Positions 13,772 to 19,099 of a stretch of DNA of 38,786 bases are shown here, in pieces (within the stretch, counting starts at the first letter, position 1; each line of letters begins with the position of its first letter). Under the pieces are notes generated by a model. The model was not told where the DNA came from. It did no database searches and was given only the letters and a program-made list of their open reading frames with translations. This DNA comes from Candidatus Effluviviaceae Genus V sp. Lineage in GTDB: Bacteria > Joyebacterota > Joyebacteria > Joyebacterales > Joyebacteraceae. The stretch covers positions 1 through 38,786 of the forward strand of contig WJMD01000147.1 in the NCBI GenBank assembly GCA_014728125.1, written 5' to 3'. Position numbers and translations under genes: made by a program.

Positions 13772-13812
13772 GTCAGGCTCAGCCCGTCAGGCTTTCAGTG
13801 AAAGATGTCAGG
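13772..13812. promoter_or_regulatory. Direct repeats, candidate XRE operator
   Basis: GTCAGGCT occurs at 13772-13779 and again at 13786-13793 (14-base period), and a shorter GTCAGG lies at 13807-13812, 21 bases on. The repeats sit 70-110 bases upstream of the XRE-cupin start, in the gap before it. No clear promoter hexamers are visible here. Confidence 0.3.
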
Positions 13813-15190
13813 AATATCGGGCCGATTTGACGCGCCGCTTGTTCTTCTCCGCGTACTCCTTTTCCCACGCCTCGTCCGCGATCGCCCGGTAGCTCCTGGC
13901 GTATCCGTCGATCTCCGCCTTGAGATCGGTGATCAGGGTCTCCGCACCCTCGTGGGTCGGGTGCGCGTGGCACTTCGCGACGCAGTCCCGCAGGACCGTC
14001 GGCTCGTCGATGAGCATGCAGGGCGTCAGGTAGTTATCGCGGTACGGCTGACGCCTCCGGATGGCCTTCATGAAATCCGAGTTCAGCGCCTCCCTGATCG
14101 AGCTGTCCCGGATGTTGTCGACCGCGAAGTGGCAGAAGACGCACGGCTCGACGTCTCCGTTGGCGTTGATGTGGACGTACTCGCGCCCCCCAGCGATGCA
14201 CCCCTCGACATAGTAGCCGTCGTTCCAGAAGTCGCCGATGAAGATCGCCTTGGACTCCCGGAGCTCGAGCACCCGCCTTCTGAGCCAGTCGCGCTGCTCC
14301 GGTGTCGGCATCAGCTCGACGTGGGGCTCTCTGCCGATCGGGATGTACTGGAAGTACCACGCGACCATCGCGCCCTTCTCGATGAGAAGGTCGATCATCT
14401 CGTCGCCGGCGATCTCCTCCATGTTCTCCCGCGTCTCAGTGAACGAGGTTCCGAACATCACGCCGGCCTCGCGCAGGTTGTCCATCGCCTGCATGACGCG
14501 GTCGAAGGTACCCTCGCCTCGCCGCGCATCGGTCCTCTCCCTGAAGCCCTCAAGGCTGATCATCGGCGCGACGTTCCCGCACTCCTCGAGCCGGGCCGCG
14601 GTCTTCTCGTCGATCATCGTGCCGTTCGTGTAGAGCTGGAAGTAGACGTCGCTGTGCTCCTGCCAGATATCGAACATGTCCGGACGGCAGAAGATCTCGC
14701 CCCCGCTCATCGTGACGAAATAGGTCCCCATCGACTTGACCTCTGAGATGATCCGGTCGACCTCCTCCGTCGAAAGCCCCTCATGCTGCTCGTACTCTCC
14801 GGCGTAGCAGCCCGGGCACCGGAGGTTGCAGCGCATCGTCGGGCTGATGACGACGAACATGGGCGGTCTGAACCCATGGCTCTTCGGCATCTCGATCTCG
14901 CGCTGGTCGGTGCCGATCAGGAACGCGTTCACGAAGAGGTTCTCGATGAGCTTGTTGCGGCAGTTCGGAGAGAGACGTTCCAGAACCTCCTTTGCCATCA
15001 TGACGGCGGGATGCCCCTGCTCGAACATCTGCCGGAGCAGGCGGATCGTCTCCCTGTCGCGCTCGACTCTCGTCAGCTTCTCTGCGAAGCGGGACGCCCT
15101 GATCAGGTTATCGACCGACATGTGTGGCACGAGGGAGAGGAGGGTCTTCGCCGCCTGAGCCCTCGTGAATGTCCTCAGGTTCGTTCTCAT
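13808..15190 (-). CDS. Radical SAM protein with SPASM-like C-terminal cysteines
   Basis: 460 residues from ATG at 15190, with GGAGG ten bases upstream; the frame extends to 15265 but runs through the promoter. A helical N-terminal region (about 1-95) precedes the radical SAM core: MRCNLRCPGCYAG (CX3CX2C), SGGE, and YTNGTMID. The C-terminal part has GCIAGGREYVHINANGDVEP followed by CVFCH, then CMLIDEP and CVAKCHAH. These are ligands for one or two auxiliary clusters in the SPASM manner. SPASM enzymes often modify peptides or small molecules, but no precursor peptide gene is seen nearby. The substrate is unknown. Confidence 0.87.
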   Translation of the reverse strand: MRTNLRTFTRAQAAKTLLSLVPHMSVDNLIRASRFAEKLTRVERDRETIRLLRQMFEQGHPAVMMAKEVLERLSPNCRNKLIENLFVNAFLIGTDQREIEMPKSHGFRPPMFVVISPTMRCNLRCPGCYAGEYEQHEGLSTEEVDRIISEVKSMGTYFVTMSGGEIFCRPDMFDIWQEHSDVYFQLYTNGTMIDEKTAARLEECGNVAPMISLEGFRERTDARRGEGTFDRVMQAMDNLREAGVMFGTSFTETRENMEEIAGDEMIDLLIEKGAMVAWYFQYIPIGREPHVELMPTPEQRDWLRRRVLELRESKAIFIGDFWNDGYYVEGCIAGGREYVHINANGDVEPCVFCHFAVDNIRDSSIREALNSDFMKAIRRRQPYRDNYLTPCMLIDEPTVLRDCVAKCHAHPTHEGAETLITDLKAEIDGYARSYRAIADEAWEKEYAEKNKRRVKSARYS

Positions 15191-15243
15191 CACCTCATCG
15201 CCTCCGCGGCAGGCTGTGAGAAAGCCCAGGTTCGCGACACTGA

Positions 15244-15272
15244 AGTATACCGCACCCGGCAGCATCTGAGAA
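15244..15272 (-). promoter_or_regulatory. Promoter for radical SAM gene
   Basis: On the minus strand TTCTCA (15272-15267), 17 bases, TATACT (15249-15244). The expected start is near 15237, giving a leader of about 47 bases to the ATG at 15190. Confidence 0.5.
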
Positions 15273-15345: not shown

Positions 15346-16497
15346 CTACGACACGGCCGGGTTCAGCGCTCCGGCGAGATCGGACGGTTTCCCGGCGCCT
15401 GCGGCGCGCTCGTAGACGCCGAGTATCCGCCGTGAGACACGTGACCAGTCGTACTGTTCGACCTCGCGCCTCGCGTTCGCGCGAAGCCGGTCGGCGAGCT
15501 CAGTGAAGCGGGCCACCTGGACGATTCCGGCGGCGATGCTCTCAGGAGACTCGCGGGAGACGAGAAGCCCGGTCGCGCCGTGGTGCACAACGTCCCGGTA
15601 GCCAGGGATGTCCGACGCGACAACAGCCGCGCCCGCCGCCATGGCCTCGAGCAGCACGATGCCGAAGCTCTCGCCGCCGGTCGCCGGCGAGCAGTAGACG
15701 TCGGCGGAACGGTAGTGCCTGGGCACGTCGGCGTGCGGCGCGAAGCCGGTGAACTCGACGCGTGACCTCGCGCGCGCCGGAACACGCGACCTGTAGTACC
15801 CGCTCAGCGGTCCGCCTCCGACGACGATCAGCCTGGCCTCGGGGACGTCCTCCAGGATCCGAGGCATCGCAGCCAGAAGATGCTCGAGACCCTTTCGCTG
15901 CTCCAGGCGTCCGACGAAGAGGATCCGGAACTCGCGGGGGTCGCGGTCGAACGGCTCGGCCTCGGCGAACCGGGCGACCTCGACACCGTTCGGCACGATC
16001 TCGTAGCTGCCGCCGAAGAACGGCTCGACGGTGGCGAGCGCCGCACGCGACACGGCGATCCGCTCCGAGAGCCTCTGAGCGTAGGGCTCGAGCCGGCGGC
16101 GGAACACGCGGTATCCCAGCGGGGACTCGTTGCTCGCGTGGAACGTCGCGACGACGGGACACGGCGCCTCGGCGACCGCGGCCAGGGAGAGCATAGGCAG
16201 GAACGGTTCGTGAACATGAACGACGTCGAACCGACGGCGCCTGAAGACGCCCCGCACGCGTCGCCGCATCGCGGGGCCGACCGCGACCGGGCAGAGCGAA
16301 CCGTTCGCCGGAACGAGGACCGCGCGTCCGAGCCTCACGACCTCGACGTCATCGACGTCGCAGCGACCGCCGAACCGCGTCGTCACGACGGTCACGTCGT
16401 GACCGAGCTTTCCGAGTTCGTGGGCGACGTGCCGCACGTGCTCACCCACGCCCCCGCGGTACGGCTGATATGTGGGCGTGACCATGCCGACTCTCAT
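15346..16497 (-). CDS. GT4 glycosyltransferase, PimA-like
   Basis: 383 residues from ATG at 16497, in an ATGA overlap with the acyltransferase gene. It is a GT-B fold retaining enzyme. The N-terminal MRVGMVTPTYQPYRGGVGEH has the acceptor-side glycine loop; VVHVHEPFLPMLSL and VVATFHASNESP resemble the mannosyltransferase PimA. The donor-side domain has ILFVGRLEQRKGLEHLL and the EX7E motif in GGESFGIVLLEAMAAG (about residues 275-284). PimA adds mannose to phosphatidylinositol at the inner face of the membrane. In actinobacteria it is encoded next to the PatA acyltransferase, as here. The lipid acceptor and sugar in this organism are unknown. Confidence 0.88.
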   Translation of the reverse strand: MRVGMVTPTYQPYRGGVGEHVRHVAHELGKLGHDVTVVTTRFGGRCDVDDVEVVRLGRAVLVPANGSLCPVAVGPAMRRRVRGVFRRRRFDVVHVHEPFLPMLSLAAVAEAPCPVVATFHASNESPLGYRVFRRRLEPYAQRLSERIAVSRAALATVEPFFGGSYEIVPNGVEVARFAEAEPFDRDPREFRILFVGRLEQRKGLEHLLAAMPRILEDVPEARLIVVGGGPLSGYYRSRVPARARSRVEFTGFAPHADVPRHYRSADVYCSPATGGESFGIVLLEAMAAGAAVVASDIPGYRDVVHHGATGLLVSRESPESIAAGIVQVARFTELADRLRANARREVEQYDWSRVSRRILGVYERAAGAGKPSDLAGALNPAVS

Positions 16498-18737
16498 GCG
16501 CTGTCCTCTTCCTCCGGCCAGATCGGCTGCAGCATGCACCACTGCGAGGGATACCGTCCGATGTACTTCTCGAAGGCCGCCACGATCGACCGCGTCAGAC
16601 GCTCCATGTCCGCGTCATCGTCGCCGGTCACGTCGAACTCGATCGCGGGTTCAACATAGCATATGAACCGCCCGCCGTCCCGGACGCAGAAGCCCGGTAC
16701 GACAGCGGCCCCGCTCTTGATCGCCCAGTACGCCGGGCCCTTGGGAAAGACGGCGGGACGAGAGAAGAACTCGATCTCGATGCCCTCCCCCCCGATGGTC
16801 CTGTCGGCAACGAAGAACACGGTCTCACCGCGCCGGAGCGCCCGTCCAAGCTTGAGGGGACGGCCGAGCGGGATGACGTTCAGACCGCGCCTGGACCGCA
16901 TCTCCTTCATCTTCTCCTCGGACTCCTCGGTGACGACCGGCTCGACGATGGCCGAGAGCGGCCCCAGGGACTCGACGCCCGCGAGGGCCGTGCCGCCGAC
17001 GTCCCAGCTTCCGAGGTGCGCCGTGGCGAACACGACGCCGCGTCCCCGGTCCACGGCCGCCTGCAGGTGTTCGAGTCCGTCGATCGTCGTTGCGTCGGAC
17101 AGCCGGCGTCCCAGCCTGCCGTTCAGGGCGAAGAAGTCGGCCCAGTAGAGCCCGTGGCTCACGAACATCCGCCGCGCCGTGCGGCGGGCCTCGTCGCTCG
17201 AGGCGTCGACCCCGAGCACCCGGGCGGCGTTCCGTCTGGCCGTCCGCCGCCGGTGCGGCAGCAGCGCATAGCCGACGAGCCCCAGAAAAGACGCGATGGG
17301 ATAGGTGACGCCGCGCGGGAGCTGGGACGCCAGCGCGGACCCGGCCCGCATGAGCGGATAGGCGTTCAGGGCGTTGAACCGCCTCGTGTCGGCGAGCAGC
17401 ACGATCGAGATCGCCGAGTAGGCGAGACACCCGATGCCCGCGCCGACAAGCACCTGTCGCGGGCCCGACGCGTCCGCGATGAGCCCTGAGAGGATGCCCG
17501 CAATCCCGAATGCCGCCTTCGACACCATCTCCCGCATGCCGAACGCCTTGCCGATCGACCCCGCCTTCATGCCCTCCTGGATCATCGTGTCGCACGCGAC
17601 CATCGTCGGCGCGACGACGAACCCCGTTGCGAAGACCAGCCCGCCGAGCATCTGGATCGAGTCAGAGAACGCCATCACGAGAACGGCGGCACCGGCGAAG
17701 AGGAAACTCAGCGAGACGATGGCCCGCCGGGGTACGGTACAGAGATATCGGCCGACGAGGAGCGAGCCGAGGAGCATACCGAGGCCGCCGACCGAATAGA
17801 GCATCCCGAGGTCGGCGGCGCCCATGCCGAACTCGTTCCGAACGAAGACGGGACAGACGATCAGCACGAGACCGGCGAGGAACATGACCGCCGACATCGA
17901 GGCCGTCGAGTAGAGGACCTCCCTCCGCCCCCGCATCTCGTTCAGACCGTCTCTGAGGTCGTCGAGCAGACGTCCGTACGCTGAACGTATGGCATCGACG
18001 TCGACGTCGGTCGCGGGCGCAGGTTCCAGACGCTCCCCTTCCGGGACGTCCCGGGGAGGCGCGGCCGCCCCGCGGCGTCCTCGCCGCGGCCCACGCTCCT
18101 TTCGTGCCCGGCGCTCCGCCGACACCTCGGCGACGCTCCTCAGCGTGAGAAAACCCACCAGTCCGGCCGACAGCGCGTACGTGCCCGCGTCGGTCCAGAA
18201 GCCGACGGCCGCGCCGTAGCGCTCGACCAGGAGACCGCCGCCCCACGGCCCGAGGATCAGCGAGGCCATCATGGCGACGTTCAGGAGGGCGTTCGCGGGC
18301 ATCAGTTTTTCGTCAGTGACGATCTGCGGGATCGCCGCCGTCTTGGCGGAGAGGTAGAAGCGGTTGATCGTGAAGACCAGGAAGACGACGACGTAGACCG
18401 GCGTCATGGTCGTGGCGACGAGCGGTATCGCCGCAACGAGGGCCGCCCGCACGAGGTCCGACCAGATCATCAACGTCTTCCGGTCGTGCCGGTCTGCGTA
18501 GACACCCGCGATCGGACTGAATATCAGCACGGGGACGCTGGCCAGGAGCAGGATCTTGGAGAACTCGAACCCGCGGATCGCCCCGTCGGTTATCGAAAAG
18601 ATGAGCGCCGCCAGGGCCATCAGATTGAGGTGGTCGCCGAGCTGGGAAGAGAGCGAGCTCGTCCACAGGAGCGAGAAGTTCCCGTTCCTGAACACGCTCA
18701 GATAGCCACCGCGCAGTTGGTCGCGTCTTTCGGCCAC
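16494..18737 (-). CDS. MFS transporter fused to LpxL/PatA-type acyltransferase
   Basis: 747 residues from GTG at 18737 with AGGGAGGG just upstream. Residues 10-450 are a 12-helix MFS domain (FRNGNFSLLWTSSLSSQLGD opening; ADRHDRKTLM loop motif between helices 2 and 3), with a long charged, Arg- and Pro-rich loop around 205-270 between its halves. Residues 470-747 are a lipid A/PIM acyltransferase (LABLAT) domain: the HX4D catalytic motif HLGSWD has His at 574 and Asp at 579, followed by NVIPLGRPLKLGRAL, FFVADRTIGGEG and the terminal YPSQWCMLQPIWP. MFS-acyltransferase fusions are known for lysophospholipid recycling (LplT-Aas), but with a PlsC-type rather than LpxL-type enzyme. A flippase coupled to lipid acylation is inferred. 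The reading frame is continuous, so this is a real fusion rather than adjacent genes. Confidence 0.9.
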   Translation of the reverse strand: MAERRDQLRGGYLSVFRNGNFSLLWTSSLSSQLGDHLNLMALAALIFSITDGAIRGFEFSKILLLASVPVLIFSPIAGVYADRHDRKTLMIWSDLVRAALVAAIPLVATTMTPVYVVVFLVFTINRFYLSAKTAAIPQIVTDEKLMPANALLNVAMMASLILGPWGGGLLVERYGAAVGFWTDAGTYALSAGLVGFLTLRSVAEVSAERRARKERGPRRGRRGAAAPPRDVPEGERLEPAPATDVDVDAIRSAYGRLLDDLRDGLNEMRGRREVLYSTASMSAVMFLAGLVLIVCPVFVRNEFGMGAADLGMLYSVGGLGMLLGSLLVGRYLCTVPRRAIVSLSFLFAGAAVLVMAFSDSIQMLGGLVFATGFVVAPTMVACDTMIQEGMKAGSIGKAFGMREMVSKAAFGIAGILSGLIADASGPRQVLVGAGIGCLAYSAISIVLLADTRRFNALNAYPLMRAGSALASQLPRGVTYPIASFLGLVGYALLPHRRRTARRNAARVLGVDASSDEARRTARRMFVSHGLYWADFFALNGRLGRRLSDATTIDGLEHLQAAVDRGRGVVFATAHLGSWDVGGTALAGVESLGPLSAIVEPVVTEESEEKMKEMRSRRGLNVIPLGRPLKLGRALRRGETVFFVADRTIGGEGIEIEFFSRPAVFPKGPAYWAIKSGAAVVPGFCVRDGGRFICYVEPAIEFDVTGDDDADMERLTRSIVAAFEKYIGRYPSQWCMLQPIWPEEEDSA

Positions 18738-18746
18738 TGGCCCTCC

Positions 18747-19052
18747 CTAGACCTCGACCTTTTCGGGCTCTGTCGTCTCGACACCGTCGATCGAGCGCCG
18801 GTCTATGGCCCTGCGAACGGCGTCCAGGAGCCGCCGGGTCTCAAGTCGGTCCCGGCACGACCGCTTCCGGATCCGCTCGATCACCGACTGCAGAACGGTG
18901 ACAGCCGTTATGTCCGCGCCCGTGTCCTTCTGTTCGACCGTCACGTCCTCGCCCGAAAGCACGAGGTCCGACAGATCGACCAGCGTGATCTGACGCCCTC
19001 CGGTCGGGTCGTAGAGACGCCTGTTCGAGTACTTGACGATGTGCCGCCCCAT
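18747..19052 (-). CDS. PhaR-like DNA-binding protein (PHB/PHA accumulation regulator N-domain)
   Basis: 101 residues. The second ATG of an ATGATG pair (19052) is preferred because GGAG is then five bases away; GTG at 19064 is less likely. KYSNRRLYDPTGGRQITLVD and LVLSGEDVTVEQKDTGADIT match the PhaR N-terminal DNA-binding domain, whose consensus is KYPNRRLYDT...YITL.DL. The C-terminal phasin-binding half of PhaR is absent and a basic helix follows instead. No polyhydroxyalkanoate gene is in the window. It lies nine bases before the MFS-acyltransferase gene, so it may regulate this lipid operon. Confidence 0.85.
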   Translation of the reverse strand: MGRHIVKYSNRRLYDPTGGRQITLVDLSDLVLSGEDVTVEQKDTGADITAVTVLQSVIERIRKRSCRDRLETRRLLDAVRRAIDRRSIDGVETTEPEKVEV

Positions 19053-19099
19053 CATCCCTCCCACGCCGCCGTGTCGGGGGTGTTTGTGCGATGCACCAG

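Follow-up and report, generated by a model that had tools for sequence, protein, structure and literature searches.

What does a membrane carrier do in one polypeptide with an acyltransferase, and what is made where the gene for this protein overlaps that of a glycosyltransferase? The question is raised by a DNA stretch of 38,786 nucleotides from Candidatus Effluviviaceae Genus V sp., analysed here as a whole and referred to as the window, which is one entire contig of a 2.52-Mb genome that is 97.6% complete.

Architecture and distribution of the fusion gene

On the minus strand of the window, a gene for a 747-residue protein (16494..18737) joins an MFS domain of 12 helices (residues 19-447; 17397..18683) to a PatA/LpxL-type acyltransferase domain (residues 465-740; 16518..17345). 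Its TGA shares four nucleotides (ATGA, 16494-16497) with the ATG of a gene on the same strand for a PimA-like GT4 glycosyltransferase of 383 residues (15346..16497), an overlap of stop and start that points to translational coupling. The first-pass annotation had read this same continuous frame, with His574 and Asp579 as the HX4D motif of the acyltransferase (17001..17018) and with the overlap between fusion stop and GT4 start, and had named structure prediction and homologue searches as checks; Pfam and AlphaFold2 now bear out the reading, and these searches return a 12-helix MFS and a PatA-like acyl half.

The open reading frame starts with GTG, preceded by a purine-rich GGGAGGG site, and Pfam finds Lip_A_acyltrans at residues 465-740 (7.4e-42), preceded by MFS_1 (1.4e-30). 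The AlphaFold2 model (mean pLDDT 75.6, pTM 0.60) comprises 12 long helices (residues 19-447), interrupted by a disordered loop (216-250), and then an alpha/beta acyltransferase (460-742). A motif-A-like loop, GVYADRHDRK (residues 78-87), lies between helices 2 and 3. Since the motif-A loop at this place is cytoplasmic in MFS proteins, a carrier of 12 helices is predicted to leave the fused acyltransferase domain in the cytoplasm, where PatA works. Two flanking genes vary in their presence: directly upstream (18747-19064, minus strand), a short PhaR-like PHB_acc_N protein is encoded that is absent here in some relatives, and downstream of the GT4 gene (13808-15265, minus strand) lies a gene for a radical SAM/SPASM protein, with NirJ/AhbC-like scores below cut-offs, that is missing from the corresponding place in several relatives.

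Named matches identify the host as a member of Candidatus Effluviviacota, a seep-sediment phylum that has its root in common with Latescibacterota and Eisenbacteria, which makes the earlier description of the genome as 'FCB-type' imprecise. LpxC is found in 13/13 good genomes, and the host is therefore an LPS diderm. Of 20 Effluviviacota genomes examined, 16 carry the fusion at full length in one frame, with conserved synteny and 50-59% identity, and two have it broken at contig ends (G006, G014), all eight genera of the phylum being covered; in the two where it was not found the genomes are incomplete (57% and 73%). It is thus kept in all close relatives complete enough to tell. Chance or an assembly error, the latter having been named by the first-pass annotation as a case that would speak against it, is ruled out as the origin of the fusion by the single open frame in 16 genomes and the preserved synteny. 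The GT4 gene follows in 17 of the 18 fusion-carrying genomes. The locus L070 (G008:C89), from a genome that is 99% complete, keeps the fusion, and the GT4 is gone both downstream and elsewhere.

No such fusion was found outside Effluviviacota among the genomes sampled. Neither a search of 386 genomes with the MFS nor a closer look at six long open frames with an acyltransferase gave an MFS-acyltransferase fusion elsewhere, and a contig scan, which used exact peptide patterns and reaches close relatives only, returned this clade plus one weak MFS match. Two of the six long frames are fusions of other kinds, from two other genomes, namely a GT2-acyltransferase of 676 residues (L230) and a tandem acyltransferase of 666 residues (L234); the others are chance open frames.

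Relationships of the acyltransferase and the glycosyltransferase

The acyltransferase half (ACYLTRANSFERASE) has M. smegmatis PatA as its top PDB match (2.5e-31, compared with 8e-10 for LpxM). When the whole fusion model is submitted to Foldseek, PatA again ranks first (TM 0.86 by target), above LpxM, and the top acyltransferase model in NCBIfam is that of the PIM acyltransferase (NF005919), at 147.6 bits, below the curated cut-off of 209. With M. smegmatis PatA as query, the fusion is the top match in 18/18 carrying genomes, above the further LpxL-type paralogues, of which most Effluviviacota genomes have two. Sequence comparison, fold and the reciprocal best hit thus agree in placing the acyl half nearest to the PatA of mycobacteria. 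In PatA, catalysis involves His126 with Glu200 and residue roles have been assigned (PMC4792965); across 13 fusions, the equivalents of Tyr83, His126, Trp130, Asp131, Glu149 and Arg164 are invariant and that of Glu200 is Glu or Asp; His574 and Asp579 show no variation in the 13 homologues. In the acyltransferase tree, the fused domains group with PatA and with enzymes of inositol-lipid operons (87/85), apart from the LpxL-type paralogues. The late acyltransferases of lipid A, LpxL and LpxM, share the Pfam family and the mechanism of HX4D plus Glu/Asp, but they match the fusion less well than PatA by sequence and fold and are present as separate paralogues in the same genomes. The identity of the domain as a lipid A acyltransferase was rejected on sequence, fold and tree, PatA being nearer in each.

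The top solved relative of the GT4 is PimA (250 bits, 40% identity), followed by PimB' with 68 bits; with PimA leading by 180 bits, the GT4 is indeed PimA-like, as had been proposed, and not an unrelated capsule enzyme. When PimA is used as the query, this GT4 scores 199-247 bits and other GT4s at most 75 bits (11-24 matches per genome in total); the same query detects no PimA-like GT4 in G008 and G011 and a copy split between contigs in G019. In the tree, the GT4 and PimA share a clade (99/99) from which eight GT4 paralogues encoded by this genome are excluded; the deep branches within the clade lack resolution. PimA residues His118, Gly16, Arg196, Lys202, Glu274 and Glu282, which serve catalysis and pyrophosphate binding, are invariant in 17 Effluviviacota GT4s. 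PimA Asp253 contacts the guanine of GDP-mannose (PMC9883506); this residue is not kept in the Effluviviacota GT4s, which have His, Gly, Ala, Ser, Asn or Arg instead and are also devoid of PimA Tyr9, Tyr62, Arg68, Thr119 and Lys256. All six positions, including Asp253, are kept in the actinobacterium-like control G263. Having lost these six marker positions, the Effluviviacota enzyme is therefore best named 'PimA-like' and not PimA. Two suppositions that came with the comparison to phosphatidylinositol mannosides (PIMs) consequently find no support: mannose as the sugar, given the loss of Asp253 and Lys256, and phosphatidylinositol itself as the acceptor, given the changed N-domain positions of PimA and a genome, G008, that is without the GT4. 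ManC is encoded in 13/13 good genomes, so that GDP-mannose would probably be available to the host.

Inositol lipid genes and unfused counterparts in other phyla

The first-pass annotation had suggested that the genome be searched for a phosphatidylinositol synthase, and in 13/13 family genomes scanned a gene for inositol-1-phosphate synthase (MIPS) is indeed adjoined by that of a PIP-synthase-like CDP-alcohol transferase, at a locus separate from that of the fusion. The MIPS is of the actinobacterial type (TIGR03450), and in this genome scores 528.6 bits, below the cut-off of 638. For the adjoining transferase, the best PDB match is PIP synthase (4e-23, compared with 0.004 for PgsA). The residues by which mycobacterial PIP synthase (PIPS) binds inositol phosphate have been described (PMC4634129, PMC6506517); the CDP-AP Asp motif, Arg94, Ser132, Arg137, Arg155 and Arg195 are invariant in 12 genomes, the exceptions being Lys135, which is usually Arg, and one change of Pro153 to Ser. 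Scores against curated models are below cut-off, with 122 bits for NF045883 (cut-off 170) and 151.8 bits for the archaetidylinositol-phosphate synthase NF040950 (cut-off 180). The MIPS-linked PIP synthase is the sole CDP-alcohol phosphatidyltransferase found in G000 (G000:C97; L051:9488-10096) and in G001 (G001:C1; 100% complete), and most of their relatives have two to five such enzymes. Judged by this enzyme family, an inositol phospholipid may be a main phospholipid of these two organisms.

Querying 290 genomes with the GT4 yielded 19 outside Effluviviacota in which a PimA-like gene scores strongly, with at least 150 bits. An acyltransferase gene adjoins it or lies in the same run in 12 of the 19, and the fetched stretch includes PIPS in five and MIPS in three, counts that reflect recurrence and not frequency, since the outside genomes were chosen partly for having the GT4. 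Three of these loci also have an MFS, which is in each case the genome's top match to the MFS of the fusion. In G120, the genes are arranged as GT4-MFS-acyltransferase with junctions TAGTG and ATGA, so that MFS and acyltransferase follow each other in the order of the fusion itself with one stop codon intervening; in G153, overlapping genes run acyltransferase-GT4-MFS; and in G213, PIPS directly precedes the MFS, with the GT4-acyltransferase pair ∼6 kb away. When the MFS search was widened, two more loci emerged: acyltransferase-GT4-MFS in G344 and, in G329, an MFS-acyltransferase pair followed by a protein that, on visual inspection, looks like a GT28 glycolipid synthase. GT4-acyltransferase pairs near PIPS are found in G083, G268, G131, G213 and G263.

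In the IQ-TREE phylogeny, 13 fused and five linked MFS form a clade (97/92) together with one unlinked MFS (G303), and 22 other MFS fall outside. The 28 further MFS loci that were checked for context are mostly unlinked, and linkage is therefore a property of one clade and not of MFS proteins generally. The proposed link between acylation and putative flipping is independently supported by the operons elsewhere in which MFS, acyltransferase and GT4 occur unfused. At L193:3011-6314, an MFS-acyltransferase pair overlapping by 17 nt precedes a protein like the GT28 synthases of MGDG/UgtP type, which suggests that the module may also serve other glycolipids. Outside Effluviviacota, the operons L142, L150 and L152 combine MIPS, PIPS and a PimA-like GT4 with two PatA/LpxL-type acyltransferases, and the second of these acyltransferases is a candidate for inositol acylation in PIMs.

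A possible pathway, its rivals and its implications

Taken together, we consider there to be an even chance that, in this LPS-bearing diderm, the fusion and the GT4 complete a PIM-like glycolipid of the membrane on the cytoplasmic side and then export it. As judged from sequence and key residues, MIPS, encoded elsewhere in the genome, would provide inositol phosphate, which PIP synthase would join to CDP-diacylglycerol. By homology, the PimA-like GT4 would then place a hexose on the lipid headgroup at the cytoplasmic leaflet, and the acyltransferase domain of the fusion, the relevant residues of which are present, would acylate the sugar by a charge relay of the PatA His126/Glu200 type. The fused MFS would finally take over the acylated product and flip it to the periplasmic leaflet, so that only acylated lipid leaves; this step we infer from the fusion, its topology, the recurrent operon linkage and the precedent of LplT-Aas discussed below. 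The present system shares with the actinobacterial PIM pathway (pgsA1 PIPS-patA-pimA) the order in which an acyltransferase of the PatA kind immediately precedes a GT4 of the PimA kind, the presence of PIPS and an actinobacterial-type INO1 in the genome, and the catalytic residues. However, the PatA-like domain is here fused behind a 12-helix MFS, PIPS lies elsewhere beside MIPS, the host is an LPS-bearing diderm, and PimA Asp253 and several N-domain positions are changed. Several observations count against the proposed pathway: (i) the GT4 lacks the six residues of actinobacterial PimA (Tyr9, Tyr62, Arg68, Thr119, Asp253 and Lys256), (ii) the scores for PIM acyltransferase, PIPS and INO1 are all below curated cut-offs, (iii) the genes for MIPS and PIPS lie away from that of the fusion, and G008 has the fusion without the GT4, (iv) the G303 MFS belongs to the clade without acyltransferase, GT4 or PIPS as neighbours, and (v) the MFS half resembles many efflux carriers by fold. 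Foldseek gives generic MFS matches only for this half (VMAT, NorA), and no substrate can therefore be read from the fold.

The main rival, which strikes us as rather improbable, reverses the direction of transport. LplT, an MFS protein, delivers lysolipid by inward flipping to Aas, an acyltransferase with which it is complexed and in some bacteria fused (PMC11416262); of the systems known to work, LplT-Aas comes closest to an MFS flippase for lipids that has a cytoplasmic acyltransferase as its partner. Likewise, the fused MFS might import glycolipid in its lyso- or deacylated form from the periplasmic leaflet for repair, the fused domain re-acylating it in the cytoplasm. The MFS half gives a weak match (75 bits) to the model for LplT-Aas fusions, NF006386, and its invariant Asp35 aligns with Asp30, which is essential in LplT, but most MFS of the wider set also have Asp at this position, which deprives the match of specificity, and the LplT model itself gives only 27 bits, far below its cut-off of 297. 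In contrast to Aas, the acyltransferase is of PatA/LpxL type and not of PlsC type, and Pfam finds no acyl-ACP synthetase domain after it or elsewhere in the fusion. The coupling to a glycosyltransferase, and to PIPS elsewhere, points to synthesis, and the direction of flipping is probably opposite to that of LplT.

It is also conceivable, if unlikely, that the pair makes an acylated glycolipid devoid of inositol, using another phospholipid or diacylglycerol and a sugar other than mannose, while MIPS and PIPS serve something else. The loss of the guanine contact and of N-domain positions of PimA would accord with this, as would the separate MIPS/PIPS locus and the apparent GT28-type synthase in G329 in place of a GT4; yet MIPS and PIPS occur in all family genomes scanned, GT4-acyltransferase pairs lie near PIPS in the five genomes named above, and the acyltransferase groups in the tree with PatA and the enzymes of PIPS-linked operons. 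An LpxL/LpxM-type lipid A enzyme joined to an unrelated efflux MFS is disfavoured as highly improbable: the Pfam name Lip_A_acyltrans and the LpxC genes fit it, but the best matches are to PatA, two further LpxL-type paralogues, placed elsewhere in the tree, are present in most genomes, and both the GT4 coupling and the MFS clade would be left unexplained. Least probable of all, and likewise disfavoured, is an accidental gene fusion with functionally unlinked halves; that the fusion is known from one phylum only would agree with it, but 18 genomes have retained the fusion, with 50-59% identity, and four other families have equivalents that are coupled without being fused.

Two wider proposals we advance jointly and tentatively, as somewhat doubtful: that the MFS half represents, as its prototype, a flippase family dedicated to acylated glycosyl-phosphatidylinositols, with members that are joined to the acyltransferase in this phylum and encoded in operons with it in others, and that PIM-like lipids exist in LPS diderms outside Actinobacteria. 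As of 2025, the mycobacterial flippase for acylated PIMs was still called uncharacterized (PMC12041525). Inositol lipids in bacteria had been regarded as mostly confined to Actinobacteria and spirochaetes until their description in Bacteroidetes (PMC9246714). The paper on the phylum Effluviviacota makes no mention of inositol lipids (PMC11323493), and nothing relevant was found in the literature on PIMs outside Actinobacteria. The parts belong to known families; as far as the literature examined shows, what is new is the way in which they are joined, the host in which they occur, and the support that operons give for placing an MFS in this pathway. A transporter joined to a PatA-like enzyme, together with its coupled but unfused versions, thus provides a testable candidate family for the long-missing PIM flippase, and suggests that PIM-like lipids may be older or more mobile than has been assumed and may be able to coexist with LPS.
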